Positions 44 through 18,004 of a stretch of DNA of 20,027 nucleotides are shown here, one piece after another. The stretch lies in IMG/VR virus record IMGVR_UViG_3300025853_000884, positions 1 to 20,027 of that record; one strand, given 5' to 3'. Position numbers and translations under genes: made by a program. The notes beneath the pieces were generated by a model that saw only the letters and a program-made list of their open reading frames with translations, was not told the DNA's origin and did not search any database. This stretch comes from a virus. The stretch's first letter is position 1; each line of letters starts with the position of its first letter.

Positions 44-207
44 CTTTGCATAAACCAAGTAAACCTTTGAGTTTTCTCGTCCTCTTCTTTTTGATAGTTT
101 GTATTTAATTGATTTTGTAAACTTTCTAAAGCTAAGTTTATCTGTCTAAAACTATCTGTTGAAAATTCTTGTGGAGGTTCAGGTAAAAATACTTGTACTT
201 TAGCCAT
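40..207 (-). CDS. Small phage protein, 55 aa, unknown function
   Basis: This 55-residue protein starts MAKVQVFLPEPP and ends WFMQR. Its ATG shares one base with the TAA stop of the gp10-like gene (TAATG), and its TGA overlaps the next ATG (ATGA), so translational coupling on both sides supports a real gene. Residues about 22-45 (NLALESLQNQLN followed by KEEDEK) look helical and may form a short coiled coil. I do not recognise the family. Its place among virion genes suggests a minor structural or assembly role, which is inference only. Confidence 0.6.
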   Translation of the reverse strand: MAKVQVFLPEPPQEFSTDSFRQINLALESLQNQLNTNYQKEEDEKTQRFTWFMQR

Positions 208-2135
208 TATCTTCTTCCATCAGGTTGAATATCAAATCTAAACATACCAAATCGCCAACTTTCATTTACTGCATCATTGGCAATTTTAACTGCAGCTAAT
301 CTTCCTCTTGCTCTAGTATCTACTTTATCTGTTGTGTTTGTAACTGTAAATGGTCCGATAGTCCTTTGACCTTGAGCAACACTTACATCCGCAGGATAAT
401 CTTTAATTACAAAACTCACTTTTGAATTACCATTAACAAATTTAAAATCAGGAATAAATCTTCTTATTTTTATAAAGTATTCACCATCTCCATCTACATC
501 TAGATCAAAATCTCCTGATTGAATATAAGCAGGTATAGCGTTGATGGTATTACCATTATCTAATACTTCATTTGTACCTATTTCATGTCTAAACACATAT
601 GAAGCTCCGTTTGTAACTCCTTGAACAACTGGAGTTGTAGGTGACATAGATGTTATAAATTGTGTCGCAATTGGTTCTTCAAAAACATGAGCATCTGTAT
701 AAGCTGTTCTAGCCAAAGAACTCGTCACCCAAACATTTTCGTCATAATTGTAAGTAACACATCTATCAACATAAGAAGAATTGGCGCTTGCATAAAACCA
801 GTTTATTTCTGAATACAAGCTGTTGTGTGAACCGTACACTAGTTCTCCAGCAGTATAATTAATTCCAGGGTTAGTGTTGTTTGTAGTAAATACAAAATCT
901 TCAACTAAAGAAGGTAATGATTTAACTGTTCCATCAAATACAAAAAATCCTCCTGAATCACCCATCCAAAAAACTTTACCTTGAGAAAAAACAGCTGAAT
1001 GCTGTCCGATACATCCACAGTTTGAACCAACTTGTCTAATACTAAATGTAAATGGAGGCCCGATAAACTGCATTAAATAAGCAGAGGTATCTGTTAAAAT
1101 TAAAATATAATCTTTTGCTTTTACTGCTGTTACAATTTTAGTTCCTGAATCAATTCTAAAAGTTCCTGCAGTGTTTGTTGAGGTAGGTGTGTAATCATTT
1201 AAATTTTCCTGATCAGAAAATCTAATAAACATTTTATCTTGAGTAATTGGACTTCCAATAGTTGTTTCTGTCCCGAAAAAAATTAAATGTCTGTCTCTAT
1301 CTGAAACTACAGACAATACAGATTTAGTCGGTGCATTTGCAATGATAGCTGCTCTTGTATTTACACCAGCACCTGAATTTGGATCCCAAGAAAAAGCAGC
1401 GCCATTATGAATAGTAGCAATTAATAATTCACCATAATTGTCTAAAGACCACGAAGCAGGATCTAATATTGTTTGTGAAGTCGTTCTTGCAGTGCCCCAT
1501 GTTCCCGCACTCCACGATCCAGTTCCCCAACCATAACCAAAAGATTGTAGTAAAGGTCCTATTTGATAATACGGTTTAGTATCTAAAGTTCCATCGTTCG
1601 TTGCACCTGTGCCTGTTTCAGCAGTCGGCATTTGAATAGTAAATGTAGTCGAACTTAAAGTATCTTGTACTTCAAACAATATATCATCAAAATCTGCAGC
1701 TACATAATCAGTTTGACCTGCAGTAAAAGAACCTGCGTTTTCGAATGTAGTGATATCTCCAACATTTAAATTGTGTGCCGATGGAGTAGTTACTGTAACG
1801 ATCCGTGATCCGTTGGTCGTGGTTATGTCAGCTCCAGTTTTAGCAATTGAACTATCAAAAGGTGTAATGTCATAATAAGCATTACCATCATAAATATATA
1901 AAATTTTATTTGTTCCAATAGCCGCGTATCTACGACCATCTAAATCTGCCCAAGTGTGTATTGCTCTCGCAGCACCTATTAATTCGTCTGAAAGAACCTG
2001 TTCCCAACCCCCTATTTTTTCTGGTGATCCATATCTAAAACGAACAAAATCTCCATCTACCCACTGATTTTCAGCGCCAGATGCTGTTTGTTGTTTATTA
2101 AACCCAGGTAAAAATTGTATTTTTCTTAATGGCAT
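207..2135 (-). CDS. P22 gp10-like tail/packaged-DNA stabilisation protein
   Basis: The protein begins MPLRKIQFLPGFNKQ and has an early block containing GAENQWVDGDFVRFRYG followed by PEKIGGW. This resembles the N-terminus of phage stabilisation proteins of the P22 gp10 type, which form part of the short tail that plugs the portal channel after DNA packaging. At about 642 residues it is longer than P22 gp10. The rest is beta-rich with many Thr, Gly, Asn and aromatic residues, as expected of a tail hub protein. A GTG 15 bases upstream (2150) would add five residues, but the ATG at 2135 gives the conserved MPLRK start. There is no clear Shine-Dalgarno sequence; a promoter-like TATAAT lies just upstream. 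It follows the enzyme cassette and returns the map to virion genes. The family match comes from memory of the motif. Confidence 0.75.
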   Translation of the reverse strand: MPLRKIQFLPGFNKQQTASGAENQWVDGDFVRFRYGSPEKIGGWEQVLSDELIGAARAIHTWADLDGRRYAAIGTNKILYIYDGNAYYDITPFDSSIAKTGADITTTNGSRIVTVTTPSAHNLNVGDITTFENAGSFTAGQTDYVAADFDDILFEVQDTLSSTTFTIQMPTAETGTGATNDGTLDTKPYYQIGPLLQSFGYGWGTGSWSAGTWGTARTTSQTILDPASWSLDNYGELLIATIHNGAAFSWDPNSGAGVNTRAAIIANAPTKSVLSVVSDRDRHLIFFGTETTIGSPITQDKMFIRFSDQENLNDYTPTSTNTAGTFRIDSGTKIVTAVKAKDYILILTDTSAYLMQFIGPPFTFSIRQVGSNCGCIGQHSAVFSQGKVFWMGDSGGFFVFDGTVKSLPSLVEDFVFTTNNTNPGINYTAGELVYGSHNSLYSEINWFYASANSSYVDRCVTYNYDENVWVTSSLARTAYTDAHVFEEPIATQFITSMSPTTPVVQGVTNGASYVFRHEIGTNEVLDNGNTINAIPAYIQSGDFDLDVDGDGEYFIKIRRFIPDFKFVNGNSKVSFVIKDYPADVSVAQGQRTIGPFTVTNTTDKVDTRARGRLAAVKIANDAVNESWRFGMFRFDIQPDGRR

Positions 2136-2141
2136 ACTTGG

Positions 2142-2170
2142 ATTATACACTAATACAGTAAACCTATAAA
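2142..2170 (-). promoter_or_regulatory. Candidate sigma70-like promoter before the gp10-like gene
   Basis: On the minus strand, TTTATA (2165-2170) and a perfect TATAAT (2142-2147) are separated by exactly 17 bases. It lies between the last cassette gene and the gp10-like gene. A start site about 7 bases past the -10 box would fall at the ATG (2135), giving a leaderless or nearly leaderless message. AT-rich DNA yields such matches by chance, so this stays tentative. Confidence 0.35.
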
Positions 2171-2508
2171 GATTGAGATCTTATTTTAGTAGCAGAAATA
2201 GCTTGTATTTCTTTAGGTAATTCTATTTCTTCAATTTTATAACCAACTCCCCTACCATAACAAACATTTGTAATATTAGGAGCCTGTATTACTTCAAATT
2301 TACCTTTATATTCTTGTAACGCGTATTTAATTTTTTCTTTAACTTGTTCAAAATCATAAGGATTATTTTTAGATATAGGCATTGACCTGACCATGATAAT
2401 TACTTGTCCTGTTTTCTCTAACGATTTTTTAAATAATTCTTGATGACCTTTGTGCCATGGTTGCCATCTACCTAACATTAAAGCTGTAGGTTTATCCCAA
2501 TCTATCAT
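2164..2508 (-). CDS. HxGH-type nucleotidyltransferase, possible APS-forming enzyme
   Basis: This is a small (114 aa) cytidylyltransferase-like fold enzyme. GRWQPWHKGH at residues 13-22 holds the HxGH nucleotide-binding motif, and ISATKIR at 104-110 is the matching ISxTxxR motif. GR at 85-86 lies in the central loop. Enzymes of this superfamily transfer a nucleotidyl group from an NTP to a phosphate or sulfate acceptor. It overlaps the APS-kinase-like gene by 17 bases, and two sulfotransferases lie in the same operon. The context therefore suggests it may adenylylate sulfate to APS, substituting for a classical ATP sulfurylase. This is inference: classical sulfurylases are much longer, and an NMN, glycerol-phosphate or sugar-phosphate acceptor cannot be ruled out. 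It is the last gene of the cassette. Confidence 0.8.
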   Translation of the reverse strand: MIDWDKPTALMLGRWQPWHKGHQELFKKSLEKTGQVIIMVRSMPISKNNPYDFEQVKEKIKYALQEYKGKFEVIQAPNITNVCYGRGVGYKIEEIELPKEIQAISATKIRSQSL

Positions 2509-2896
2509 GTATCTCTCTTATAATATGATCGTAGTTATAGTCTGTAATTTCATAGTCAACTTCTTTTGGTATTTCAAAAATTTTATTAGTATCTTCAAAT
2601 CGTCCTGCTTCAATCGTATTTATCCAAACTGTTAAATCATAATTCTTACGGTATAAATTAAATGGACATACAAAATCTACAACACATGTTTTACCTGCAA
2701 TCTGACACAAATCTTCCATTCGTACTGCTTGTCTTAATCTTCCTCTTTCTGTAAAATCCCAATCTTTAAACAAACCTCTTATTTCATCTGCATTAAAGTG
2801 AGGTAAATCTGTATCTTGTGTAAGTTGTTTTGCAAAAGTTGTTTTACCAGAACCAGGCAAACCAAACACTAATATTTTTTTTAAAGGTTTATTCAT
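2492..2896 (-). CDS. APS-kinase-like P-loop kinase
   Basis: A Walker A loop GLPGSGKTT lies at residues 12-20. NADEIR at 35-40 takes the position of the [D/N]xDxxR segment of adenylylsulfate kinases, followed by DFTERGR (47-53), a second Arg-rich helix, and VCPF at 76-79, where APS kinases carry an xxPF/SP motif. Together this matches a CysC-like kinase that phosphorylates APS to PAPS, the sulfate donor. At 134 residues it is shorter than typical APS kinases (about 175-200 aa), so the lid region is reduced. It overlaps genes on both sides and would supply the two sulfotransferases upstream. A different small-molecule or polynucleotide kinase of the same fold is the main alternative. Confidence 0.75.
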   Translation of the reverse strand: MNKPLKKILVFGLPGSGKTTFAKQLTQDTDLPHFNADEIRGLFKDWDFTERGRLRQAVRMEDLCQIAGKTCVVDFVCPFNLYRKNYDLTVWINTIEAGRFEDTNKIFEIPKEVDYEITDYNYDHIIREIHDRLG

Positions 2897-3428
2897 TAAT
2901 TATTTCTCCACAAAACTTAACAGTTATTCTTGGAATATATTTTTTATTAAATGCATTTGCTCTATGTAGTTCAGCAGCATTAAACATAAAAACTCTCCCA
3001 TGTTTAAAGGAAACTTTTTTATTTTGATCTTTATTAATAAATTCACCACTTGGATTGTTAGGTAAATTTTCATTACATAACATAAGTATAAATACTAAAT
3101 GCTTTGAATTACCATCACAATGAAAAGTACCATCTTGTCCGTAGAATTGTAAATTAGCACAAATTTGTTTTAAATATAAATTAACATCAAAACACTTACA
3201 TAAATGTTCAAATAAACTTATAAACTTTGGAGTTAAATTAGAGGTATGAGCTGTATAATTATTTTGTCTAAGATAAATGTCATTACTCATTAATAAATGA
3301 GTACCTTTTTCCCCATAAGGAAAAGAAGTTCTATTAGCTATGTTGTTTGCATACCATGGACTATTTAACAAATCATAATATAATTCATCCACAAATCTTT
3401 TATCTAAAAGATCATCACTAATCTTCAT
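2889..3428 (-). CDS. 2OG-Fe(II) oxygenase
   Basis: Non-haem iron dioxygenase of the prolyl-4-hydroxylase-like fold. Counting from the MKISDD start, the metal triad is H103 and D105 (in FHCDG) and H155 (in ELHRA), and R167 (in PRITVKF) would bind 2-oxoglutarate. These enzymes couple oxidation of 2-oxoglutarate to hydroxylation of a protein side chain or small molecule. An ATG at 3440 would add MESF, but the ATG at 3428 has GGAGAG four bases upstream, so it is preferred. That ribosome site lies inside the last codons of the halogenase gene, which this one overlaps. The tight link makes a shared substrate with the halogenase likely but unproven. Confidence 0.85.
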   Translation of the reverse strand: MKISDDLLDKRFVDELYYDLLNSPWYANNIANRTSFPYGEKGTHLLMSNDIYLRQNNYTAHTSNLTPKFISLFEHLCKCFDVNLYLKQICANLQFYGQDGTFHCDGNSKHLVFILMLCNENLPNNPSGEFINKDQNKKVSFKHGRVFMFNAAELHRANAFNKKYIPRITVKFCGEIINE

Positions 3429-4821
3429 AAAACTCTCCATGTTTTATAGATTGTTTAATGTTAATTTTATTGGTGTCTTCATAATCTTTCATAGAAGGGA
3501 AAGGTTTATAAAAAGTCATATCTTTATTTTTTTTGATTAAACCTAAACCATTACTAACAAGAATGTGTCCGATATAGGTAAAATATAAATTACCTTTTTG
3601 TGTCATAAGATCTATTATGTTTAGATTACCTTTTTCTATTTTATTTAAAATAGGTTTTAATTTGTCTGGAACAATAGTATTTTTTCTAAAATTTTTCCAA
3701 AATGGACTATCTTTTCTTTTTGTTAAATAATGTAAATACAAAAAGCTTAATATATTATCATTATTTTCCTTAACAACTTCATTATAAGAATTAATAGAAT
3801 CTTGGTTTAAATTTTTAACATTAGATAAATAATGTTTTAACAATTCTAATTGAGATAAAGCCAACCATATACTAGTGGCTTCTAAAGGTTCTGTAAATCC
3901 AGTGCTTAACCCAACTGCCATGCAATTACTAACCCATACTTTTTTATATCGTCCTGCATCAAATTTAAAAACTCTTAAAGGTTTTAAGTCTTGTTTAAAA
4001 TAGTTACTAGCCTCTTCTATGGCTTGATCCGCGTTTATATAATCTGAATCATAAATATAACCTGACCCCCATCTTTCTTGTAAAGGTATTTTCCATACCC
4101 ATCCGTACTTCATGGCAACAGCTTCAGTGTATGGAATTAAATCTTTGTCATGTTTTAACATAAAAGGCACAGCGCGTTTCATAGGTAAATGTTTTTGATA
4201 ACTCACCCAAGGAGTTTCAAAATGTTTACCTATTAACAATCTAGCAAAACCAGTGCAATCAAATATGAAATCACAATCAAACTTTCTTTTATCTTCTAAT
4301 ACAATTGATTTAATTTTATTTTTTCCGTTTGCTTTTTTAAACTCACCTTGTATCCATTTAACACCTCTTCCTATAGCTAAAGTTCTTAAATATTTTGCTA
4401 TTTTAAAAGCATCAAAGTGTAAAGCATATGTACAATTGTTCGGATCTATTCTGTTAGCATAACTTATTTTATTAGCATATACAAAATCATCTATATTTTT
4501 ATTTTTATTTAAAGCTTCATGAATTAAATAACTATACTCATCCCCTGTAAAAGGGTGAAAGTATTGTTTATTATCCCCATTCCAATTTTTAAAATTAATT
4601 CCATTTTTAAATGTTCCACCTGTTTTTTTAATAACATCTAGAGGATCAATATCTAAAAATTGTAAACTAGATATGATTTGAGGAGTAGTTCCTTCACCCG
4701 CTCCTAATATACCTATTTTATCAGATTCAATTAAAGTGACTTCATGTCCGTGAAAATATTTATTACAATACAAAGCTGTAAACCAACCCGCAGCTCCTCC
4801 TCCTAAAATTACTATTTTCAT
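3418..4821 (-). CDS. Flavin-dependent tryptophan halogenase
   Basis: The protein has the hallmarks of flavin-dependent (PrnA/RebH-type) halogenases, which use FADH2, O2 and halide to make HOCl/HOBr and pass it through a tunnel to an active-site lysine. An N-terminal FAD loop GGGAAGW is at 7-13 and GAGEGTTPQ at 40-48. K72 in TFKNGINFKNW fits the catalytic lysine (K79 in PrnA). The family motif WxWxIP is present as WVWKIP at 241-246. STGFTEPLEAT at 306-316 matches the segment carrying the conserved glutamate. At 467 residues it is shorter than PrnA/RebH (about 530 aa), as some viral homologues are. A marine cyanophage halogenase (VirX1) with broad iodinating activity is known, so a free-tryptophan substrate should not be assumed. 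It overlaps neighbours on both sides. Confidence 0.92.
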   Translation of the reverse strand: MKIVILGGGAAGWFTALYCNKYFHGHEVTLIESDKIGILGAGEGTTPQIISSLQFLDIDPLDVIKKTGGTFKNGINFKNWNGDNKQYFHPFTGDEYSYLIHEALNKNKNIDDFVYANKISYANRIDPNNCTYALHFDAFKIAKYLRTLAIGRGVKWIQGEFKKANGKNKIKSIVLEDKRKFDCDFIFDCTGFARLLIGKHFETPWVSYQKHLPMKRAVPFMLKHDKDLIPYTEAVAMKYGWVWKIPLQERWGSGYIYDSDYINADQAIEEASNYFKQDLKPLRVFKFDAGRYKKVWVSNCMAVGLSTGFTEPLEATSIWLALSQLELLKHYLSNVKNLNQDSINSYNEVVKENNDNILSFLYLHYLTKRKDSPFWKNFRKNTIVPDKLKPILNKIEKGNLNIIDLMTQKGNLYFTYIGHILVSNGLGLIKKNKDMTFYKPFPSMKDYEDTNKINIKQSIKHGEFYED

Positions 4822-5567
4822 ATATCTAAATTTTTATAATTATTAATTATTGATTGAGGCAAAACATCTTTATAAGAATACTTTCTTTTTGAGATAGAAT
4901 CTGTCCTAATCTTATGTAAATTATAACCTAACACATTATCATTATATTTTACACCGTTAATCTCAAATTGTTTTATTTTTTTAAGTTTAATATCTACATG
5001 TAAATATTCTCCTAAATCTTTTAGAAAAGCTGTTGGGTTATTTACTAGATCATCATATTTAATTATTTTATAATTTAATTTGTTTTTAATTATATTTTTT
5101 GTGCTTATTAAATAATGCATTATTATACCTGAACCATACCCTGCATTACCGTGATGATACATTAATGAATGACATCTTTTTTCTACATCTTTAGGTTTTT
5201 CTGCTAAAATCATTGAAGCTAAACATTCTAGTAAAGGTCTATGTAAAATTATAAACTTTGGATTTTTATATACTTTTTTAAGGCACATTAAATTATCGGG
5301 TGTACCCCAAGGTCCTCTATCTATTATATGTGTGCTATTCCAATCTTTGTAATAATTATCAAATAAATTTTTACCAATATTATTTAATGATTTTTCATCA
5401 GGAAAATTTTTATAAATTTCAGATTCTTTTAATAATTCTAAATTATATAAAACATCTGTTAGTAAAGAATTAGCAGACATCTTAATGTAATTGTTTTGAT
5501 TTATTAAAGAGCCTAAAAGCGTATTACCTGATCTAGGAAGTGAAGATAAAAAATAAAAATTTATCAT
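4818..5567 (-). CDS. Sulfotransferase family protein (copy A)
   Basis: The N-terminus FLSSLPRSGNT (6-16) is the PAPS 5'-phosphosulfate-binding loop of sulfotransferases. FIILHRPLLECLASM (105-119) matches the 3'-phosphate-binding segment, with R110 and S118 as key residues. IIDRGPWGTP (81-90) lies between them, as in marine phage and bacterial members. The enzyme would move sulfate from PAPS onto a hydroxyl or amine of a sugar, protein or small molecule. It is clearly a paralogue of the 8130-8864 protein, sharing YN..LLKE..IYK, DEK and PW.TP patterns across most of its length. It overlaps the halogenase start (ATGA type). The acceptor is unknown. Confidence 0.85.
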   Translation of the reverse strand: MINFYFLSSLPRSGNTLLGSLINQNNYIKMSANSLLTDVLYNLELLKESEIYKNFPDEKSLNNIGKNLFDNYYKDWNSTHIIDRGPWGTPDNLMCLKKVYKNPKFIILHRPLLECLASMILAEKPKDVEKRCHSLMYHHGNAGYGSGIIMHYLISTKNIIKNKLNYKIIKYDDLVNNPTAFLKDLGEYLHVDIKLKKIKQFEINGVKYNDNVLGYNLHKIRTDSISKRKYSYKDVLPQSIINNYKNLDI

Positions 5568-5977
5568 TCTGTATAGTCAATGCTCATAGAAATACCTGCT
5601 CTTGGTTCAGTGGCCTCTACGCCATGCCAAGTTTTTTTAGGTATGTAAAGCAAATCACCAGTTTTTAAAGTTACTTTTTTAGTATCAAAATGCCATATAG
5701 AAGTTCCTTTGACTTGCCAAAAATAAACATCTGTACCGTCCCAATGTCTACCCATCGTGTCTCCTTTACATAAATTTATATACAAATGTGCATCATCAAG
5801 TTTTAAATCTTTTAAAATAGGTTTTACTTCTTTAATTTTGTAAGCCTGGTGTGAAATTAAAAAACCAGGGCATTTGTGTTTTACAATTTTATTATTAGTA
5901 ATAGACCAGTTTAAATTCTCTAATAATGTTTCCCAACTAGGAACATTTAAATTATATTTTTTTGTATGTTTAATCAT
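5564..5977 (-). CDS. JmjC/cupin-like Fe(II) oxygenase
   Basis: This 137-residue protein is a single cupin barrel. RHWDGTDVYFWQVKG (77-91) carries an HxD metal pair (H78, D80) followed by the Q.KG turn typical of JmjC/ROXA-type ribosomal oxygenases. GDLLYIPKKTWHGV (107-120) contains the distal histidine H118. JmjC-like cupins hydroxylate protein side chains using 2-oxoglutarate, and some cupins of this shape act on small molecules. It is shorter than full ribosomal oxygenases and lacks their C-terminal dimer and winged-helix parts. It is co-transcribed with the other oxygenases and overlaps both neighbours. Confidence 0.8.
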   Translation of the reverse strand: MIKHTKKYNLNVPSWETLLENLNWSITNNKIVKHKCPGFLISHQAYKIKEVKPILKDLKLDDAHLYINLCKGDTMGRHWDGTDVYFWQVKGTSIWHFDTKKVTLKTGDLLYIPKKTWHGVEATEPRAGISMSIDYTE

Positions 5978-6485
5978 GAAAACAACTGTTAAACGATATT
6001 ATAGTTTTTCTTTTTTTACTTTTAAATTGTGCAGAAGTGTGTAAAACATGTGCTGGCAATGTAATTAAAACTCCTTCTCCTGCATCAATTATCTGTTCTT
6101 CATTTGTAAAAGGATCTTTAATACGTGTCAACATTGCAGTATGTGGAGCCTCGATATAATAAATGTTTGTCCAATTAGTTTTGTGATGCCTATGCCAAGT
6201 ATGAAAGTCATTTTCATAATATTGTTGAAACCAGCCATTCCATATTGTCCAATTTTTTGCTTGCAACATTTTACACATTTTATTCATGTAAGGACTTATT
6301 TTTTTATAAAATAAAGTTAAATATTCTCTAGGTGTTTCTTTAGAAAGATTCCAATCAGTTTTAGTAATGTTTTCAAATTTATTTTCAGGCATTTTAGATA
6401 TTAAATTTATTAAATCTTTATTAAAAACTTTATAATCTTTAATAGGTGTAACAATATAAAAATCTTTTAATGATTTAACTTTCAT
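5970..6485 (-). CDS. 2OG-Fe(II) oxygenase, TIGR02466-like
   Basis: The core region is GWFQQYYENDFHTWHRHH (84-101), then NIYYIEAP, and LPAHVLHTSAQF (143-154). This arrangement, with an iron-binding His-rich segment (H98, H100 or H101), the YYI strand and a distal LPxxxLH histidine (H149), resembles the TIGR02466 family of putative 2OG-Fe(II) oxygenases common in marine phages and SAR11. R159 or its Lys neighbours could bind the 2-oxoglutarate carboxylate. It looks related to the cassette's first gene (10391-10933) but is not a close copy. Substrate unknown. It overlaps the neighbouring genes by 4 and 8 bases. Confidence 0.75.
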   Translation of the reverse strand: MKVKSLKDFYIVTPIKDYKVFNKDLINLISKMPENKFENITKTDWNLSKETPREYLTLFYKKISPYMNKMCKMLQAKNWTIWNGWFQQYYENDFHTWHRHHKTNWTNIYYIEAPHTAMLTRIKDPFTNEEQIIDAGEGVLITLPAHVLHTSAQFKSKKRKTIISFNSCFHD

Positions 6486-7045
6486 ACAAATGTTAAAACC
6501 GCTACCACTCTTCTTTGCATTGGTTTACAAAAAGCTGCTGTATGGTAATAACTACCATCAAAACATATTGCTTTACCGAGTTCAGGTTTTATCCTTTCTT
6601 TTATTTTTAATTTTTTACTAACATCTAATACAGTTTTTTTACCATTATATTTTTTATCAAAAATAATTGTATCTCCACTAGTGTTATTTAAATATATCAT
6701 AAATACTTTATGATCAAATTCATGATCTACATGCGGGTCTCCGTGTATAAATTTGCCATGATGATGTGTAAGATTTAAACAACCTCTTGTAATTTTATTT
6801 ACTTTTAATTTATGTTCATCTGCAAATCTTTCAAACATTTTCATAATATGTGGTGTTACGTCAGAGTTTGATTGTGGTTCTTCTTTAGTATGATTATATC
6901 TTTGAATTAATCCGTGAGAAAAAAAATGAAATTTATTACTGGTAGCACTTTCTTGAAAATACCACGGGAAGTTATTACCAAGTATATAGTTATTTATTTC
7001 TACTATTTCTTGATCAAATAAAAAATTTTTACTTTCTAATATCAT
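6482..7045 (-). CDS. 2OG-Fe(II) oxygenase
   Basis: This is a 187-residue double-stranded beta-helix oxygenase. The likely iron ligands are H105 and D107 (in DPHVDHEF) and H168 (in GSYYHTAAF), with R178 or R179 for 2-oxoglutarate. FDKKYNGKK between them suits the loop before the second half of the barrel. A second possible HxD (H101, D103) lies just upstream, so ligand assignment needs a model. The stop and start codons overlap the flanking oxygenase genes as ATGA. The family is confident; the substrate is unknown. Confidence 0.8.
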   Translation of the reverse strand: MILESKNFLFDQEIVEINNYILGNNFPWYFQESATSNKFHFFSHGLIQRYNHTKEEPQSNSDVTPHIMKMFERFADEHKLKVNKITRGCLNLTHHHGKFIHGDPHVDHEFDHKVFMIYLNNTSGDTIIFDKKYNGKKTVLDVSKKLKIKERIKPELGKAICFDGSYYHTAAFCKPMQRRVVAVLTFV

Positions 7046-7605
7046 TTAAAAGGATCTCCTAATGCCCATGCGACTAGTGCGTATCTAGTGCCTTTAATTA
7101 CAGGAGTAACTTTATGCATTGTAGGACTTGGAAAAACAACAACACTACCTTGTTTTCTAAATTTTATGGGTTGAAAATCATTTACTTCACCTTTTATTAA
7201 TCTTCTAAACATAAAATTTCCACCTTCATAAGAAGAAGGATCTGAAAGATTAATAGACATAGATAGTTTTCTAATTTTATTTCCTTTAAAAGGTTTTGAT
7301 AAAGTATCTTCGTGCCAATTAAAATGATCACTTTTATCATATTGAGCTAATTGAATGTCTTCTAACAAGTCATATTGATAACCCCACCCTGCACTATTAT
7401 TAGCCTGATTAAAAAGAGGTTCTATTATATTATGAAAATATTCAGGTTTTTTCCAAACAACTTTTCCTTTCCTTTGTTTAGAAGAAGTTCTTCCATAAGT
7501 TTTAGCTTTAATTTTTTTACTATCATTAATCATTTTTATAATGTGCTTACATTCTTTTTCAGTAAAAGCAGATTCAAATATCCAACACAAATTATCGTGT
7601 ATCAT
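7042..7605 (-). CDS. 2OG-Fe(II) oxygenase, prolyl-4-hydroxylase/PiuC-like
   Basis: This is the most canonical oxygenase of the cassette. HFNWHEDTL gives the HxD pair (H98, D100). The EGGNFMF strand (127-133) is typical of prolyl-4-hydroxylase/PiuC/P4Hc proteins. FPSPTMHKVTPV (158-169) carries the distal H164, and KGTRYALVAW gives R174 for 2-oxoglutarate. The N-terminus FTEKECKHIIKMI is the usual opening helix. Substrates in this family include peptidyl proline and other protein residues, as well as small molecules. It is the third of four consecutive 2OG-type genes between the two sulfotransferases and overlaps the gene before it by 14 bases. Confidence 0.88.
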   Translation of the reverse strand: MIHDNLCWIFESAFTEKECKHIIKMINDSKKIKAKTYGRTSSKQRKGKVVWKKPEYFHNIIEPLFNQANNSAGWGYQYDLLEDIQLAQYDKSDHFNWHEDTLSKPFKGNKIRKLSMSINLSDPSSYEGGNFMFRRLIKGEVNDFQPIKFRKQGSVVVFPSPTMHKVTPVIKGTRYALVAWALGDPFK

Positions 7606-8155
7606 CTATAATCCAGTTCAACCAACCTGTTATAATTCTTTTTGTATTATTAAAATCAATAATACCGTTATGGGTAAAGGTCCAATCAGCTGGCCATATT
7701 AATGTTAAACCTTTTTTACCTTCTGTTTCAAAATCTTGATATTTAAAATACGTACCTTTAGAATCATTTAGATAAGTCATAAAGACTAGTAATCTAGTAA
7801 AAGACCATTGTTCTCTTTCGTAATGAGGTCTATAAAAACCCTGTCCTGGTTTATACTCTTGTATTAAAGGAGACTCAGTTAAACCCCATCTGGTATCTGC
7901 AAACTGTAATTCTGGATATTTAAATTTGTAATTATTAACTACCTTAACAAATTCAGAACTATATTTAGGTAATTTTTCATAAAATTGTGAAGGTTGTAAT
8001 GTAATATCTGTAGACTCTTTGATTTGAGGTTGTACAGTGTGTCCACCAGATTTACCTGGTTTTGCTAGTTTTTTATTTTTATTATAATATTTATTAACTT
8101 CTTCAACAGCGCTATCACTTATAAACTCACTATGAAGAAATAAAGGTGTTTTCAT
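7592..8155 (-). CDS. 2OG-Fe(II) oxygenase with HxE metal motif
   Basis: This is a 187-residue prolyl-4-hydroxylase-like protein. YRPHYEREQWSFTR (109-121) is where HxD normally sits, but the residues are H111 and E113, a less common HxE form. GLTLIWPADWTFTHNG (149-164) contains the distal H162, and KRIITGW supplies R173. The usual hydroxylase outline (YLND, then a YFKYQDFE strand) is intact, so activity is plausible. Glutamate is tolerated in some members of this superfamily. Its start overlaps the end of the sulfotransferase gene by 26 bases. Confidence 0.82.
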   Translation of the reverse strand: MKTPLFLHSEFISDSAVEEVNKYYNKNKKLAKPGKSGGHTVQPQIKESTDITLQPSQFYEKLPKYSSEFVKVVNNYKFKYPELQFADTRWGLTESPLIQEYKPGQGFYRPHYEREQWSFTRLLVFMTYLNDSKGTYFKYQDFETEGKKGLTLIWPADWTFTHNGIIDFNNTKRIITGWLNWIIDDTR

Positions 8156-8864
8156 ATTTTTTAATAACTTCCTCTGGAACTTTTCTTATAAACTTATGTT
8201 TAAGTAATTTTATCTCATCTGTTCTAATAGTAGTTTGAGGATGGTTACGTTTATCAACTTGATTTAAATTTTTAAACTTATGTTTTTTATAATAAGTTAA
8301 ACCTAGAAACTTATATAAATCCTTAACAATCTTTTCTGGGGAATCACAAAAATCGTGATAATTAATAATCATTAAATTTTTTTCTTTTTTATTTTTTAAG
8401 TTTTGTAACCCTAATAAAGATTTACCTATTGGCCCTGTTTCATGCATTAAGTAATCACAAAAGTTTTCAACTTGATGTGGTTTAGGTCTAATAACTCTAC
8501 AAAAAGATTCTAATATTTCTCTTAAAGGTCTAACTAAATATATAAATTTACTTGGTAAAAAACCCATGTATTTTAATAATTCATAATTTGCAGGTGTACT
8601 CCAAGGTGCTCTTTCTATAATATTTTTTGCTTTATTATCTTTATGATACATATGTAAAACATTATTCATAACATTGTCGAAAGGTTTTTCATCACCGTTT
8701 TCTTTATAAATTGTTTGTTCTTTTAATAAATACATATTGTAAACTATTTCAGGCACAACACTATTTGGAGTAACATTTAATTCTGGATTTTGATTTAAAA
8801 TAGAAGTTAACACGGTATTACCACAACGCATGTATCCACATAAGAAAAAATATTTTTTATTCAT
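8130..8864 (-). CDS. Sulfotransferase family protein (copy B)
   Basis: FFLCGYMRCGNTVLTSIL (6-23) corresponds to the PAPS loop. The usual PRSGNT is replaced by MRCGNT, which keeps the Arg, Gly, Asn and Thr but changes Ser to Cys. NQNPELNVTPNS follows, as in the short sulfotransferases of marine bacteria and phages. LVRPLREILESF (110-121) matches the 3'-phosphate site. Similarity to copy A (4818-5567) runs over nearly the whole length. It is separated from the carbamoyltransferase by only three bases. The acceptor is unknown, and altered PAPS affinity from the loop change is possible. Confidence 0.83.
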   Translation of the reverse strand: MNKKYFFLCGYMRCGNTVLTSILNQNPELNVTPNSVVPEIVYNMYLLKEQTIYKENGDEKPFDNVMNNVLHMYHKDNKAKNIIERAPWSTPANYELLKYMGFLPSKFIYLVRPLREILESFCRVIRPKPHQVENFCDYLMHETGPIGKSLLGLQNLKNKKEKNLMIINYHDFCDSPEKIVKDLYKFLGLTYYKKHKFKNLNQVDKRNHPQTTIRTDEIKLLKHKFIRKVPEEVIKKYENTFISS

Positions 8865-8867
8865 TTT

Positions 8868-10394
8868 TTAATCCTTTTTATATAAATAATTTATTTCAGG
8901 CATATATATATACTTTAAGTCTGAATTATTTACTAACTCTATAGCTTGGTTATAAGTATTTATCAAGGGTTTACCTGCAATATTTAGAGAAGTATTTAAT
9001 AACACAGGACACTTTGTTTTATTATACCACGCTTTTAACAATTTATAAAAATTAGGATTTTGTTTTTGTTTTAAAGTTTGCACCCTACATGTATTATCTA
9101 TATGTGTAATCCCAGGTATTAAATCTGGCTTTTTAACTTTAGCAGCATAGCTCATAAATGGTGTTTCTAATTTAGGTAAATCAAACCAGTTTTTAAAATG
9201 CTCATGCATAACTGTTCCTGCATAAGGTCTATACCATTCTCTTTGTTTAAGTTTATTTACAATATCTTTTGCATGGGGATTCATTGGATTAAATAATAAA
9301 GATCTATTACCTAACGCTCTTGGACCTGCTTCTTGTCTACCTTGATATATAGCAACAATATTATTGTTTCTTAATAGTTCAACAACTTCATTAAGATTAG
9401 TGTTTGCTTTTAATTTAGGGTACACAGGTTTTAAACCTATATATAAACTATTATAAGGTTTTACTTTTATATTATTTTCTTTTGCTACAAGTAAAGCTAA
9501 ACCCATAGAAGTACCACCATCATGAGCCAAAGGATCTACAAATATATTTTTATAATGATTTAAAATATAACCATTACTTTGACAATTTTGAAAATAACCT
9601 CCAGACAAACAAATATTTGCTTTTGAATCCATTTTTAAAATTTTATTAACTCTATCTAAAACAATTTCATTAGATTCTTTTTGAATACTATAAGTAATTT
9701 TATATTTGTCATGATTAACTTTAACCATCATGTGCCACAATAAATTTTGATTAACTTTATATAATTCATTATTTTTATAATACACGGGTATATCTAAACC
9801 TTTTTGACTATAAGAAGATAAACCCATGACTGACCCTGGTTCCCTAGATCCTAAATAAGAAGCGGCATATTTAAATAAAAGAGCAGGACTGATGCTTTGG
9901 ATACTGTGTATTGTATCGGTATAACTCATGTCTATACCATTACAAACTTTCCATTTTAAATTAAATTTACCGTTGTAATAAAATATAGATTCTATTTCGT
10001 TACCTATGTTCATGTTGTTATAATAGTAAGGTGTTCCACTGCCATCCATAACCAAACAATATGCATTTTTAAATTGACTATTAAACAAGGCGCAAGAAGC
10101 ATGCTGCAAGTGGTGATCTAAGCTATAAGTTATTTGTTTATAATTTATAGAATATTTTTCACAATTAAATTCAATTAACTGCTTATAAAAAAGAGCTGAA
10201 TCATGTGTAAGTTTTGGGTGTCCAAATATTATTGTATCAAATGTTTGATTTTTTAATTCATTCCATAAATAATTAATATTATAATCTTTCTTAATACCAG
10301 AAAGCATTGACTCTTCTTGATAAAAAGAAATAATATTATTATCTATAATACATGCACTAGCATCGTGTGAAAATTGTAAACCTAATATTTTCAT
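8868..10394 (-). CDS. NodU/CmcH-type O-carbamoyltransferase
   Basis: The enzyme would transfer a carbamoyl group from carbamoyl phosphate through an adenylate onto a hydroxyl of a sugar or other metabolite. The N-terminal Kae1/TsaD-like half shows MKILGLQFSHDASA, DHHLQHASCALF (93-104, metal-binding histidines), DGSG (117-120), LSGGYFQN (263-270) and DGGTSMG (292-298). The C-terminal YrdC-like half has the family signature GRQEAGPRALGNRS (352-365), HIDNTCRVQT (431-440) and LNTSLNIAGKP (466-476). At 508 residues it is a little shorter than NodU but complete in motifs. It starts by ATGA overlap with the first cassette gene. Such genes occur in other marine phages; the acceptor here is unknown. 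Confidence 0.93.
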   Translation of the reverse strand: MKILGLQFSHDASACIIDNNIISFYQEESMLSGIKKDYNINYLWNELKNQTFDTIIFGHPKLTHDSALFYKQLIEFNCEKYSINYKQITYSLDHHLQHASCALFNSQFKNAYCLVMDGSGTPYYYNNMNIGNEIESIFYYNGKFNLKWKVCNGIDMSYTDTIHSIQSISPALLFKYAASYLGSREPGSVMGLSSYSQKGLDIPVYYKNNELYKVNQNLLWHMMVKVNHDKYKITYSIQKESNEIVLDRVNKILKMDSKANICLSGGYFQNCQSNGYILNHYKNIFVDPLAHDGGTSMGLALLVAKENNIKVKPYNSLYIGLKPVYPKLKANTNLNEVVELLRNNNIVAIYQGRQEAGPRALGNRSLLFNPMNPHAKDIVNKLKQREWYRPYAGTVMHEHFKNWFDLPKLETPFMSYAAKVKKPDLIPGITHIDNTCRVQTLKQKQNPNFYKLLKAWYNKTKCPVLLNTSLNIAGKPLINTYNQAIELVNNSDLKYIYMPEINYLYKKD

Positions 10395-10933
10395 TGTTTG
10401 ATATTAATATTCCAAGCTATACTTATTCTATCTTCATTACTTTTATTTTTACAAACAGAATGTTGTAACCAACCTGGAAATATCAATAAATCATATTGAT
10501 TTGGAAAATAATCAAAAACATGTCTATCTTTTAAAAATTTAATTTGTCCAGAATTTTTTGGAACTTGTATGTAATAAACTGCTGCAAAGTGAGCTTCACC
10601 ATGAGCATGATATATATTATAGGCTCCTTTAGAGCTTATATTGATCCAAGGTAAGTCAGGGTAACAAGTCCAAGGTTTATTTAATTTAATTTCATCTGCA
10701 AAAATAGAAAATGGAATTTGAAATTTTTTAATAAATTTTTTAATAATCGGATTTTCATTCGGAATTAATTGGGATTGATACCCATGTTTATTACTTTTAA
10801 TTACACCTTTATTTTTATTTTTTAAAGTATAAGCTAATTTAATTAATTCTTTATTTAATTTTAAATGAGATTTTTTTAAATTAAATTTAATAATAGGAGT
10901 ACGTAATAAAGTATATACCTGTCTTTCTTCCAT
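10391..10933 (-). CDS. 2OG-Fe(II) oxygenase, TIGR02466-like; first cassette gene
   Basis: DLPWINISSKGAYNIYHAHG (93-112) contains the conserved W-N...N..H.H arrangement. VYYIQVPKNSGQIKF (119-133) and FPGWLQHSV (152-160) are the other TIGR02466 hallmarks. Likely iron ligands are H109/H111 and H158, with R169 in EDRISIAWN for 2-oxoglutarate. No Shine-Dalgarno sequence precedes its ATG. Instead there is a promoter-like element with a predicted start site about three bases away, and a perfect inverted repeat that puts the ATG in its loop. It opens the cassette right after the tail-fibre genes. Confidence 0.85.
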   Translation of the reverse strand: MEERQVYTLLRTPIIKFNLKKSHLKLNKELIKLAYTLKNKNKGVIKSNKHGYQSQLIPNENPIIKKFIKKFQIPFSIFADEIKLNKPWTCYPDLPWINISSKGAYNIYHAHGEAHFAAVYYIQVPKNSGQIKFLKDRHVFDYFPNQYDLLIFPGWLQHSVCKNKSNEDRISIAWNINIKQ

Positions 10934-10950: not shown

Positions 10951-10970
10951 ATTTTATTAGTGAATTACAA
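10943..10970 (-). promoter_or_regulatory. Candidate promoter at the head of the enzyme cassette
   Basis: On the minus strand TTGTAA (10965-10970, including the stop of the preceding gene) and TATATA (10943-10948) are 16 bases apart. The expected start site, about 10936, lies only about three bases before the ATG at 10933. The -10 box sits inside an arm of the inverted repeat. The match is imperfect and the DNA is AT-rich, so support is modest. Confidence 0.3.
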
Positions 10971-11573
10971 CGCTAGATTCCAGCTAGTTCCGTTCCAAGT
11001 TCTTTTAGATCCATCATTATGCCAACCCCACCAAAATTGATTATCCTCATCCCACTGTACAGGAATTCTTCCTTCTGGTAATTCTATTGTATTACCATCT
11101 GTGTTGGTTACAGTCACATAATTGATTCCTTGAATATATCCATTTTCCCCTGTTGGATTTACAGGTCTTTGAGTGTTTGGATCTAAAATAGATGTAAATG
11201 GATCAGATCCATAATATCTTTGTTCTTCTGTAGGCATTGCTACAGGTGGTTCCCAAACATTATTAGAATTTAAAACCCAACTTGCATGTGGTTTTGGATC
11301 AATAAAAACATTGGTTGACGGATTATAAGTTGAACCTATTTTTGCAGCATTTCCTCTATAAGGTGTTCCTGCAGGAGCATTAGCATATCTGCTATTTCCA
11401 ACTGTCCACATAGAATATTTTTTAAAATTTCCATTGGCATCACCTGTTAAATTTCTTAAAAACTCTATACCTTTAGCTTCGTTTTCAACACCATCTACTA
11501 AAATATCATTGTCAGCGACTTTGTATAAGTCTGTTACAACATTGTTAGCGTCTAATTTACAAAAACTTGCCAT
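10965..11573 (-). CDS. Tail-fibre-associated protein of T4-like/marine phage type
   Basis: The opening MASFCKLDANNVVTDLYKVA, then GIEFLRNLTG, WTVGNSRYANAP and KPHASWVLNSNNVWEPP, follows a pattern common in marine myo- and podophage proteins encoded beside tail fibres (LD..NVV..., G..F......, W.........YAG, P..SW.L......W..P). The C-terminus is Trp-rich (QWDEDNQFWWGWHN, then WNGTSWNLAL), which suggests a small beta-rich binding or chaperone-like unit. It follows the Gly-rich protein with a one-base gap and is the last gene before the enzyme cassette. The exact role is not established. Confidence 0.65.
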   Translation of the reverse strand: MASFCKLDANNVVTDLYKVADNDILVDGVENEAKGIEFLRNLTGDANGNFKKYSMWTVGNSRYANAPAGTPYRGNAAKIGSTYNPSTNVFIDPKPHASWVLNSNNVWEPPVAMPTEEQRYYGSDPFTSILDPNTQRPVNPTGENGYIQGINYVTVTNTDGNTIELPEGRIPVQWDEDNQFWWGWHNDGSKRTWNGTSWNLAL

Positions 11574-11574
11574 A

Positions 11575-12354
11575 TTATTTAATCCTATAACTTATCCAAA
11601 CAGCACCGTTAGCACCTGTTCCGCCGCCACCCCAAGAGTAGCCGCCTCCGCCTCCAGCGCCTGGTCGACTTCCGCCTCCTGCTTGCCAGCCTCCGCCACC
11701 GCCTGTTCCTCCAGTACGATAGCCTCCGCCACCACCAACTAATGCTCCGCCAGTGTTATCTGCATATTGAGTTACACCAGGGCCGCCTGTAGGTCCATCA
11801 GGTGCGTTTCCTCCTGCACCTGCTCCAGATCCTGCTGATCGAGATGCTCCCGATCTACCTGATCCGCTGTAATCTGCATTATTTCCACCAGGGCCACCTC
11901 GGGCACTTCCACCGTTTCCACCATTTGCAGTACTACCAAAAGCAGAAGTTGATCCTCCTGCTGCTCCAGCGGAACCTTGTTGAGAGCCATTACCTGTTTG
12001 AGGTCCACCAGCTCCAACTGTAAAAGAATAGTTTCCAACTGGAATAGATACTGAAGATTGATTTAATCTTACAATAGCAGCAGCTCCACCTGCACCATCA
12101 GGTGCATGAACTGATCCACCGCCACCTGATCCACCGCCTCCAGCGATAAATCTAGCAAAAGTATTAAATCCAGGTTTACTTGGAACTTTAGTTAATTCGA
12201 ATGTACCTGAAGTATTAAATTGATGAAGTTGATATTCTTCTGCACCACTAGTAAATGTAGAAATAGTTCCACCCGTTGCTAAAATAATATTTAGTCCACC
12301 AGAAAATCCAAACCCTCTTGCTGAACCTCCGCCTCTAGTTGTTATTAGTGGCAT
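11575..12354 (-). CDS. Glycine-rich tail tip/adhesin-like protein
   Basis: About the first 68 residues are ordinary (MPLITTRGGGSARGFGFSGG, then EEYQLHQFNTSGTFEL, a strand pattern seen at the start of phage Gly-rich domains). From residue about 71 to near the end it is dominated by runs of Gly with Ser, Ala, Asn and Thr, closing with GAVWISYRIK. Such Gly-rich sandwiches form receptor-binding tips in several phages (for example T-even gp38 adhesins). The section is visibly more GC-rich than its surroundings because of the glycine codons. An AGGAG ribosome site overlaps the tail-fibre stop just upstream. A receptor-binding role is inferred from composition and position. Confidence 0.7.
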   Translation of the reverse strand: MPLITTRGGGSARGFGFSGGLNIILATGGTISTFTSGAEEYQLHQFNTSGTFELTKVPSKPGFNTFARFIAGGGGSGGGGSVHAPDGAGGAAAIVRLNQSSVSIPVGNYSFTVGAGGPQTGNGSQQGSAGAAGGSTSAFGSTANGGNGGSARGGPGGNNADYSGSGRSGASRSAGSGAGAGGNAPDGPTGGPGVTQYADNTGGALVGGGGGYRTGGTGGGGGWQAGGGSRPGAGGGGGYSWGGGGTGANGAVWISYRIK

Positions 12355-13478: not shown

Positions 13479-14630
13479 CTAAGCCGCTATGTCAACAACG
13501 GTCCATGTTGGTTCAGAACCTGGATCTACAACAGCCCACGCATTTAAACCTATTATACCAGTGGTAGCAGAGACTGTCACTCCTGTTGCATTAACTTCTG
13601 CACTAATTCCTGCTAAGAAATTACCAATAATAATTGGTCCAAATTGAACTCCAGTTGGTTCAACTCTTACATTAGTAAATGCATTTTCATTGCCTAAATT
13701 TATAGATAATTGATCTAAAGCCGTTAAAGTAACATTAGCATCACCCGTTACAAATACATCTTCAGTATTTGAAGTTGTAGGGATACCAACAGCATCAATT
13801 TCAATTGATGGAATAGCAACTTCTTCTCCACCTTGAGATATATCAGTACCTACAGATTGACCCCATTGACCATCACCCCAAGCTGTTTCGCCCCAAGGCT
13901 GTGCTGAAGCTGTAGTTACTTGTACCTCTACAACCTCTCCTCCAAATGCATCTCCTAGAGTTGAATTGATTAAAATACCCTCATCAATAACAACTGGAAT
14001 TTCAACAGTTCCTACAGCTTGGAAAGCAATTTGTTCTCCAGAAACTTCAACATTAGCGTCAGCTGAAATATCAGGTTGACCAGTTATAACTGTTACACCG
14101 TCTCCAACACCCCACTGTCCTGAACCCCAATATTCAGTTCCCCATTCGTCATGAGAAGGTGAAGTTACAGGAACTGTAACAAGTTCTCCTCCAAATTCAT
14201 CTCCAGTAAATGTTTGTAAATCTGTTATACCAGTTAAAAATACTTCAGCACTAGCTCCTGCTACTGCGGTAGCTGTTGTTGTATTTAACTGTTCTCCTGT
14301 TACGCCAGCATCAACACTTACAGTTAATTCTGCAGAACCTTGGTCTGTATCCATTCCAGATATTTGACCCCATTCTGCATCACTCCAAACATCTAATCCC
14401 CAAGGAGTTCCTTTACCAGGTGTTACTACTGCTACTGAAATATTTTCAAAATCTTGATTCCAAACTAATGAATTCCAAGATAATCTTCCCCAACCCTGAT
14501 TGTTAAATGCGTCTGCTGATCCTACTGTTGTACTAGCAGTTTGATCACCACCATAGGTTTTAGATCCCCAAGTTTGAGAACCATATGCGGTAAGGCCCGC
14601 TGACACTACCTGTACTGTAATATCTGCCAT
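13479..14630 (-). CDS. Trp-rich repeat virion protein, probably tail
   Basis: This 383-residue beta-rich protein has repeated Trp-Gly motifs: PWGLDVWSDAEWGQ (76-89), DEWGTEYWGSGQWG (161-174) and PWGETAWGDGQWGQ (245-258). Each is preceded by a [D/N]xF..G.VVxVxVT strand block in the latter two copies. It lacks a signal peptide. Its position before the tail fibre and the strong GGGAGG ribosome site just upstream point to an abundant structural protein. I do not recognise a named family. Strand-swapped tail decoration or fibre-adaptor roles are possible. Confidence 0.65.
   Translation of the reverse strand: MADITVQVVSAGLTAYGSQTWGSKTYGGDQTASTTVGSADAFNNQGWGRLSWNSLVWNQDFENISVAVVTPGKGTPWGLDVWSDAEWGQISGMDTDQGSAELTVSVDAGVTGEQLNTTTATAVAGASAEVFLTGITDLQTFTGDEFGGELVTVPVTSPSHDEWGTEYWGSGQWGVGDGVTVITGQPDISADANVEVSGEQIAFQAVGTVEIPVVIDEGILINSTLGDAFGGEVVEVQVTTASAQPWGETAWGDGQWGQSVGTDISQGGEEVAIPSIEIDAVGIPTTSNTEDVFVTGDANVTLTALDQLSINLGNENAFTNVRVEPTGVQFGPIIIGNFLAGISAEVNATGVTVSATTGIIGLNAWAVVDPGSEPTWTVVDIAA
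13857..14405 (-). repeat. Three Trp-Gly modules spaced about 85 codons apart
   Basis: Within the 383-residue protein, Trp-rich blocks recur at residues 76, 161 and 245, a spacing of 85 and 84 residues (about 255 bases). GDEFGGELVTVPVT and GDAFGGEVVEVQVT sit at matching offsets ahead of the second and third blocks. An earlier divergent block (GWGRLSWNSLVWNQ, 46-59) does not keep the spacing. This suggests duplication of an 85-residue beta module. Confidence 0.6.
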
Positions 14631-17970: not shown

Positions 17971-18004
17971 TTTGTTTTGGCATTTGTGATCTTGTTATTC
18001 CCAT
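17861..18004 (-). CDS. Upstream half of the same small basic gene, 47-aa ORF
   Basis: This ORF starts MGITRSQMPKQIEGKLRGAR, an opening I associate with small marine phage proteins (MGITRSQ.PKQI). Its ATG overlaps the endolysin stop as TAATG. After residue about 28 it runs through a Lys-rich stretch and then an atypical tail ending SRTFTV. The expected family continuation instead lies in the +1 frame. A classic A-AAA-AAG heptamer (17921-17927) is present in frame, but a -1 slip there would end within four residues, so it does not explain the fusion. Confidence 0.5.
   Translation of the reverse strand: MGITRSQMPKQIEGKLRGARTEKKQEKKKLQVKKPYRKNALSRTFTV

Follow-up and report, generated by a model that had tools for sequence, protein, structure and literature searches.

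The window considered here, the whole 20,027-nt stretch that was analysed (positions 1 to 20,027 of IMG/VR virus record IMGVR_UViG_3300025853_000884), comes from an HTVC023P-like podovirus, a pelagiphage, of whose genome it covers 20 kb. Its tail and neck genes are homologous to those of HTVC023P-type podoviruses and stand in the same order; the stabilisation protein is 54–56% identical to those of HTVC027P and HTVC023P, and homologues of tail4, tail5, B_6-B_9 and M15 are present in L002 and L003. The assignment rests on these genes, the published HTVC023P-type clades being based on polA and other genes absent from the fragment. HTVC023P-like isolates have SAR11 as their host, which is probably the host of this marine phage as well.

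Thirteen ORFs, all on the minus strand, fill positions 2164–10933. Eleven of the 12 junctions overlap by 4–26 nt and the remaining one is a 3-nt gap, as expected from the initial annotation, which described 13 same-strand genes, nearly all overlapping. The GC content of this cassette is 24–28%, against 33–46% across most of the remaining window, and dN/dS (Nei-Gojobori) is below 1 in all 13 genes, at roughly 0.03–0.6; these values are rough because synonymous sites are near saturation (pS 0.43–0.68, in cassette and backbone alike). Promoter and terminator scans stayed at chance level. The flanks are also as first described. On one side lie fib1, a phrog_7759-type fibre or accessory protein (10965–11573, minus strand; PHROG E-value 1.2e-21), and a glycine-rich fibre adhesin (11575–12354, minus strand; PF21722, 1.3e-8), both candidate acceptors; a PDB search found no relative of fib1 and only a weak match of the glycine-rich protein to the Pam3 fibre. 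On the other side lies a backbone gene for a P22 gp10-like stabilisation protein (207–2150, minus strand; phrog_3287, 4.2e-86; 56% identical to that of Pelagibacter phage HTVC023P), phrog_3287 being a virion structural/stabilisation family and this a neck gene.

What chemistry does the cassette encode? All 13 genes belong to the families originally claimed for them. Six are 2OG-Fe(II) oxygenases with PHROG E-values from 1e-21 to 5e-36: g1 (10391–10933; PF13759, 6.7e-19; phrog_81, 5e-36), g4 (7592–8155; phrog_61, 9.6e-27), g5 (7042–7605; PF13640, 6e-15), g6 (6482–7045; phrog_274, 3.5e-35), g7 (5970–6485; PF13759, 2.7e-6; phrog_81, 8.8e-22) and g11 (2889–3440; phrog_274, 1e-21). Only g1, g5 and g7 pass the Pfam cut-off; g4, g6 and g11 fall below it. 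The g5 protein is PKHD/YbiX/PiuC-like (NCBIfam Fe2+-dependent dioxygenase, 1.2e-15), with PKHD hydroxylases, including PiuC, as its nearest relatives in NCBIfam and the PDB. A seventh oxygenase, g8 (5564–5977; PF08007, 2.3e-12), is of the JmjC_2/cupin type. Inspection of the ORFs located the HxD/E...H metal triad that accompanies the 2OG and cupin profile matches, for example HxE...H...R in g4, HxD...H...R in g6 and HxD...H in g8. The product of g10 (3418–4821; PF04820, 1.9e-107, 360 bits against a cut-off of 21) is a predicted flavin-dependent (tryptophan-type) halogenase; aligned to PyrH (2wet), it retains the catalytic-Lys region and the WxWxIP and EPLE motifs, and its best isolate match is the HTVC008M halogenase (45%). 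Finally, g2 (8868–10394; PF16861, 4e-54; PF02543, 3.5e-11; phrog_1601, 1.9e-125) is a NodU/TobZ-type O-carbamoyltransferase, a type defined by Carbam_trans_N (Kae1-like) and Carbam_trans_C domains; both Pfam matches are above cut-off, and its PDB homologues are carbamoyltransferases, TobZ among them.

For sulfation, the cassette seems to contain everything it needs. Two sulfotransferases of the PAPS type, g3 (8130–8864; Sulfotransfer_3, 1.7e-10) and g9 (4818–5567; phrog_27463, 5.5e-29; Sulfotransfer_3, 7.7e-6), both match phrog_27463, g3 lying above the Sulfotransfer_3 cut-off and g9 just below. Their alignment displays the hallmarks of PAPS-dependent enzymes, an Arg/Gly-Asn 5'-PSB loop and a 3'-PB Arg...Ser (R-x7-S) motif, with R12, G14, N15 and R110...S118 invariant across 14 homologues. 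What the initial annotation overlooked is that its kinase and HxGH nucleotidyltransferase, g12 (2492–2896; 1.1e-22) and g13 (2164–2508; 1.1e-27), are the N- and C-halves of a single family, phrog_10255. Fused homologues score 54–58 bits against the APS_kinase cut-off of 21; the compact g12 kinase, with a score of 20.3, does not quite reach the threshold of 21.1 and also stays below the NCBIfam equivalog cut-offs. In a Foldseek search with a model of the fused L050 homologue (43% identical), the best 49 PDB matches all carry an APS-kinase-type domain, being APS kinases, PAPS synthetases or ATP sulfurylases with an APS-kinase-like domain. Among 46 loci from kinase and backbone searches, 30 have the kinase directly downstream of a sulfotransferase (null mean 10.6, maximum 22), and the three of 38 backbone-only slots with the kinase/nucleotidyltransferase all fall within the six that bear sulfotransferases (p=0.0024). 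Bacterial homologues are fused kinase-nucleotidyltransferase proteins (APS_kinase, 1.8e-15), whose genes adjoin Pfam sulfotransferases in L307, L309 and L313. The g12 protein is thus likely to be an APS kinase that works for the sulfotransferases.

The second half of the pair is less clear-cut. The g13 protein is a minimal 114-aa adenylyltransferase domain whose AF2 model (pLDDT 89.3) has an NMNAT/PPAT-like fold; ATP sulfurylase first appears at rank 24 of the fold search, and the match to PF01747 (E 0.015) is below cut-off. We give an even chance to g13 making APS, an ATP-sulfurylase-like role suggested by its context. Given the APS-kinase fold and the sulfotransferase adjacency, the two proteins together probably make PAPS in a host that lacks ATP sulfurylase: sat and cysDN are absent from SAR11 HTCC1062 (PMC5069961). 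Because SAR11 AprBA can form APS out of sulfite (PMC5069961), g13 may have another role. An alternative to the sub-claim as a whole, compatible with any reading of the cassette, is that the kinase acts on another nucleotide or a polynucleotide end and that g13 yields a CDP-, ADP- or NAD-type product. The NMNAT/PPAT affinity of g13 in both sequence and fold, and the occurrence of kinase-nucleotidyltransferase genes in other phages with no recognised sulfotransferase, fit this alternative, but we consider it unlikely in view of the kinase half's uniform fold matches and of an operon that recurs in phages and has its fused bacterial counterpart beside sulfotransferases.

Is the cassette a module or an accident of one genome? 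In the independent contigs L006 and L007, 10–11 cassette genes, the glycine-rich adhesin and fib1 occur in the same order; L009 shows this arrangement in a shorter fragment, and L008 and L082 are separate metagenome contigs with a related gene set from which some genes are missing. Recurrence in separate contigs rules out an assembly artefact, and repetition of the order in independent assemblies, together with dN/dS below 1 throughout, makes the cassette more than a chance arrangement. Relative to L006 and L007, the adhesin (80–81%), fib1 (76–77%) and g2–g11 are mostly 62–85% identical, whereas the stabilisation protein and backbone are only 42–53% identical; g1 is the least conserved cassette member. 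Since such gaps alone could reflect differences in rate, the argument for horizontal transfer lies in the reversal of rank between partners: against L082, the stabilisation protein is 75% identical, the halogenase 55% and fib1 45%. The block is therefore a real, conserved and co-inherited module, and the scattering of its genes among related phages that would have spoken against it was not found for this set. Detecting these loci required alignment queries, as a single carbamoyltransferase or sulfotransferase sequence recovered only the L006 contig.

In 38 related phages, this slot is occupied by 4–13 mixed enzymes: 2OG oxygenases in all 38 (2–8 genes each), halogenase in 14, and carbamoyltransferase and sulfotransferase in six each, the last three each being found without the others. 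Thus, while the block is conserved and co-inherited, as the proposal of one pathway for the whole set implied, a fixed, obligatory pathway is not borne out, and the slot is a mix-and-match toolbox. This strong turnover is what would be expected if the genes were independent auxiliary metabolic genes in a tolerant hot spot, directed at host iron, 2-oxoglutarate or sulfur metabolism and sharing no target, and published accounts do class 2OG genes as metabolic (PMC3037559, PMC9599517, PMC9602691). However, block order and overlaps persist across divergent backbones, and pairing is non-random, sulfotransferase with kinase/nucleotidyltransferase and halogenase with carbamoyltransferase (p 0.018 in the unbiased backbone-only set). 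In 35 slots from the backbone-only search, moreover, enzyme content co-varies with fib1 (partial r 0.46, p 0.0005) and with the glycine-rich fibre (partial r 0.34, p 0.0005), with no correlation to the stabilisation protein at the other flank (−0.17). We regard independent metabolic genes as quite improbable.

That related cassettes move between phages jointly with the fibre gene suggests decoration of the fibre or of its receptor. Neighbouring genes can also be inherited together because they are physically linked, with conserved recombination sites on either side. The fib1 family adjoins 2OG genes and a carbamoyltransferase in the unrelated cyanomyoviruses P-RSM4 and S-MS29 as well. As a separate lead from about 40 tests, the adhesin contains more His in halogenase-bearing slots (p 0.0004 in the unbiased set, 0.0007–0.0014 after dereplication, 0.025 at the strictest level); its Trp and Tyr contents had no convincing link to halogenase presence.

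We tentatively propose, at somewhat below an even chance, that the 13 genes together form a module, transferable between phages, for tailoring the tail adhesin. Late in infection, together with the tail genes, the 2OG and cupin oxygenases would hydroxylate side chains in the neighbouring fibre proteins (the glycine-rich adhesin and/or fib1), the halogenase would halogenate aromatic side chains, the carbamoyltransferase would cap hydroxyls and the two sulfotransferases would add sulfate from PAPS, for which g13 would adenylylate sulfate and g12 complete the donor; the order of these reactions is part of the proposal. The outcome would be a chemically diversified receptor-binding surface that could affect adsorption, with fibre and enzyme set exchanged jointly. 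The acceptor itself may be the adhesin, which we hold at slightly less than evenly balanced, and the host receptor is a close rival. Sugars or small molecules are the substrates of NodU/TobZ-type carbamoyltransferases and of many sulfotransferases, which counts against the adhesin and for the host surface. Enzymes that modify the receptor, a lipid or a polysaccharide, thereby blocking sibling re-adsorption or aiding release, would be matched to the fibre, since enzymes and fibre have one receptor in common, so the same fibre-enzyme pattern is predicted. The additional O-methyltransferase and Sulfotransfer_2 genes of L006 and glycosyltransferases elsewhere in HTVC023P-type phages fit such a role. 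We nevertheless judge it rather unlikely: no glycosyltransferase was recognised within the cassette, g5 is of the PKHD, protein-hydroxylase type, and the enzymes lie within the tail-gene run, not among early takeover genes.

Halogenases, carbamoyltransferases, sulfotransferases, APS kinases and 2OG oxygenases are also classic tailoring enzymes, and the phage halogenase VirX1 takes many small aromatics (PMC8407142), so that the cassette might build or tailor a host metabolite or natural product released in infection. This is very doubtful, as no scaffold-forming enzyme (NRPS, PKS or terpene synthase) was found among the scanned proteins of the 20 kb fragment, content tracks the fibre gene and phages exchange the components freely. 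An anti-phage defence system was ruled out, PADLOC returning only generic ATPase and 2OG matches, and neither supporting genes nor context for DNA modification were found.

How does this module compare with known systems? As the initial annotation stated, 2OG oxygenases, halogenases and carbamoyltransferases were previously known from marine phages. Arrays of 2OG genes beside tail genes had also been described, in HTVC023P-type and T4-like marine phages. In HTVC023P, HTVC027P and the environmental genome 023Pt_psg01, of the same lineage, the same slot between tail and stabilisation genes holds 2OG-Fe(II) oxygenase and 'ferrochelatase' partner genes (PMC9599517); halogenase, carbamoyltransferase and sulfotransferase were not found in the text of that paper, whereas here 13 genes bring several chemistries, a likely PAPS supply and coupling to the adhesin. 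The T4-like cyanophages P-RSM4 and S-MS29, with 2OG arrays and a carbamoyltransferase beside phrog_7759 genes, and the pelagimyophage HTVC008M, with 2OG oxygenases and a halogenase near tail, neck or fibre-like genes, are of a different phage type; sulfotransferase and APS kinase are not annotated in those stretches. VirX1 of cyanophage Syn10 (6QGM), which has an accessible active site (PMC8407142), is a flavin-dependent halogenase homologous to g10 (6.4e-49), but among isolates g10 is nearer to that of HTVC008M and it travels with the fibre. Cyanophage S-SCSM1 exhibits an extreme expansion to 24 2OG oxygenases, read as host reprogramming, with no adhesin linkage proposed in the accessible part of that paper (PMC9602691). 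With PAPS synthetase, in which an APS kinase at the N-terminus precedes a C-terminal ATP sulfurylase, the fused homologues share the kinase-then-nucleotidyltransferase order, the APS-kinase fold and the sulfotransferase context, but their nucleotidyltransferase half is the minimal NMNAT-like domain, not a recognised ATP sulfurylase, and in the window phage the halves are separate overlapping genes. We found no published description of this combination of enzymes, coupled to an adhesin and provided with a PAPS supply of its own.

No targets are known for the many 2OG oxygenases, halogenases, carbamoyltransferases and sulfotransferases that marine phages carry, as two papers state for 2OG genes (PMC9602691) and phage sulfotransferases (PMC10580990). 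We propose sulfate activation as a function for phrog_10255, so far annotated merely 'kinase', and for the uncharacterised bacterial fused kinase-nucleotidyltransferase. More speculatively, with a probability well short of even, the module may modify its own receptor-binding adhesin by hydroxylation, halogenation, sulfation and carbamoylation at once (and methylation in relatives), its content matched to each adhesin and its PAPS made by its own minimal pair in a host that cannot itself activate sulfate. If this is true, host-recognition diversity would be encoded in chemistry besides sequence.

The window's 20,027 bases are one complete virus record and, judged by sequence, form part of the genome of an HTVC023P-type podovirus. 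The stabilisation protein (P22 gp10-like, 207-2150) is 54-56% identical to those of the Pelagibacter phages HTVC027P and HTVC023P, the tail gene order agrees with that of HTVC023P-type relatives, and from these phage relatives we infer that the host is SAR11. Positions 2164-10933 contain 13 minus-strand ORFs, overlapping at 11 of 12 junctions and numbered g1 to g13 from 10933 downward. Family searches bore out all 13 gene families named in the initial annotation: 2OG oxygenases (g1, g4-g7, g11), a cupin (g8), a carbamoyltransferase (g2), sulfotransferases (g3, g9), a halogenase (g10), a kinase (g12), and a nucleotidyltransferase (NT; g13). The last two match one and the same PHROG family, phrog_10255, with g12 covering its N-terminal half and g13 its C-terminal half. 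dN/dS is below 1 for every gene, with synonymous sites near saturation. The phrog_274 label "DNA endonuclease V", which falls on 6482-7045 and 2889-3440, is probably a misannotation; both proteins carry 2OG triads. Elsewhere, 13479-14630 encodes a structural protein in which blocks rich in W and G recur (TWGSKTYGG, WGQISGM, WGSGQWG) and which had no match in Pfam and PHROG searches, and 18004-18480 encodes an M15-type peptidase homologue, likely a lysis enzyme, 76% identical to its HTVC023P counterpart.

How widely is such a cassette shared? 2OG genes also lie in the slot between the fibre genes and the stabilisation gene in HTVC023P, HTVC027P, and the environmental genome 023Pt_psg01, and the 2OG genes of this slot have been described previously (PMC9599517). 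A stabilisation-protein search yielded at least 80 loci, of which 38 non-redundant complete slots were used for counts. All 38 contain recognised 2OG oxygenases (2-8 each, mean 4.7) among a total of 4-13 genes. A halogenase is present in 14 slots, a carbamoyltransferase and a sulfotransferase in 6 each, and the kinase/NT in 3. The 2OG counts are minimal, since another gene frequent in the slot (roughly 47 of 89 unlabelled genes), resembling the type annotated "ferrochelatase" in isolates and called a "partner" of the 2OG genes in PMC9599517, probably encodes a further oxygenase. This assignment is based on an HxD...HWR pattern like that of 2OG oxygenases (L002:16302-16922, L144:6377-6967, L147:1028-1669, and L004:14439-15095, all in related loci) and on a Pfam search with the HTVC023P copy that returned no match. 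The 2OG profiles used here did not match the proteins labelled "ferrochelatase", a label that looks wrong for these phage proteins.

Both sulfotransferases keep their PAPS-binding motifs. Of 46 usable loci found by searching with the kinase or the backbone, 30 have the kinase as the next gene downstream of a sulfotransferase (null mean 10.6, maximum 22), and the two share a fragment in 42 of 49. Two fragments (L166, L169) carry the Gly-rich adhesin and fib1 fibre genes followed by just sulfotransferase, kinase, and NT; in the window, g10 and g11 intervene between g12 and the nearest sulfotransferase, g9. When the model of a fused phage homologue (L050, 253 aa; pLDDT 91.2) was compared with the PDB, the top 49 matches were all APS kinases, PAPS synthetases, or related sulfurylase enzymes bearing the APS-kinase domain. 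In bacteria, the homologues combine kinase and NT in one fused protein whose APS_kinase domain scores above threshold; in L307, L309, and L313 they are flanked by Pfam sulfotransferases. These uncharacterised APS-kinase/minimal-NT fusions (bacterial contigs L305-L317, several adjoining sulfotransferases) come from Alpha- and Gammaproteobacteria and one planctomycete MAG, and each is possibly a compact PAPS synthetase. The g13 model (pLDDT 89.3) is a minimal, NMNAT/PPAT-like HxGH domain. SAR11 strain HTCC1062 has neither sat nor cysDN, yet it does encode AprBA, an enzyme able to make APS from sulfite (PMC5069961, whose text and table disagree on cysC). The APS could therefore be supplied by g13 or by the host; whichever the source, g12 would yield PAPS. 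Outside the HTVC023P-type lineage, kinase-NT genes often occur without a recognised sulfotransferase and sometimes enclose a DUF2061-type small membrane protein gene, which points to a possible additional function of the family. The enclosed genes are L204:8447-8665 (the one assigned by Pfam), L209:3357-3569, L223:1651-1860, and L224:8256-8477.

What do the enzymes modify? Gene order is conserved as a block, the comparison that the initial annotation proposed as a check: L006, L007, and L009 have a nearly identical set in the same order, and L008 and L082 a related one. At the position of g12/g13, L006:11940-13684 carries oxygenase, O-methyltransferase, and Sulfotransfer_2 genes on the opposite strand, widening the chemical palette to methylation and a third sulfotransferase. 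Between the window and L006, identity is 62-85% for g2-g11, 48% for g1, about 80% for the Gly-rich adhesin (11575-12354), and 76% for fib1 (phrog_7759-type, 10965-11573), versus 42% for the stabilisation protein and 32-55% for tail genes; against L082, the stabilisation protein reaches 75%, the halogenase 55%, and fib1 45%. This reversal of ranks, an argument independent of rates, shows that fibre and cassette have a common history distinct from that of the backbone. A distance test covering 35 slots among the loci listed showed that enzyme content tracked fib1 (partial r 0.46) and the Gly-rich adhesin (partial r 0.34), each with a permutation p of 0.0005 that only partly accounts for relatedness, and did not track the stabilisation protein at the slot's other border (partial r -0.17). 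The pattern was unchanged in a larger set of 68 slots. Part of this coupling could stem from linkage to a recombination border that is conserved.

Several elements were known before. PMC9602691 and PMC3037559 already describe 2OG expansion in cyanophages, the phage halogenase VirX1 has been reported (PMC8407142), and phage sulfotransferases are known, their role being unclear (PMC10580990). Carbamoyltransferase genes adjoining 2OG and phrog_7759 genes in cyanophages were also known. Keyword searches of the open-access literature found no account of the enzyme combination, the adhesin coupling, or the sulfotransferase/APS-kinase operon; their novelty is provisional, since the searches were few and covered neither subscription literature nor preprints.

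Because the enzymes sit within a run of tail genes and are co-inherited with the adhesin, we favour the adhesin (the Gly-rich PF21722 protein and/or fib1) as their target. The main rival is that they modify the receptor recognised by the fibre, which predicts the same co-inheritance; no scaffold gene turned up among the window's proteins, which makes a small-molecule product less likely. In halogenase-bearing slots, the Gly-rich adhesin contains more histidine, frequently within GGGxH contexts, a suggestive pointer to a His target that is weakened by relatedness and multiple tests. We propose that, on the adhesin, the oxygenases, among which g5 resembles PKHD hydroxylases, would create or alter hydroxyls, that the sulfotransferases and carbamoyltransferase would cap them, and that the halogenase would target aromatic residues.
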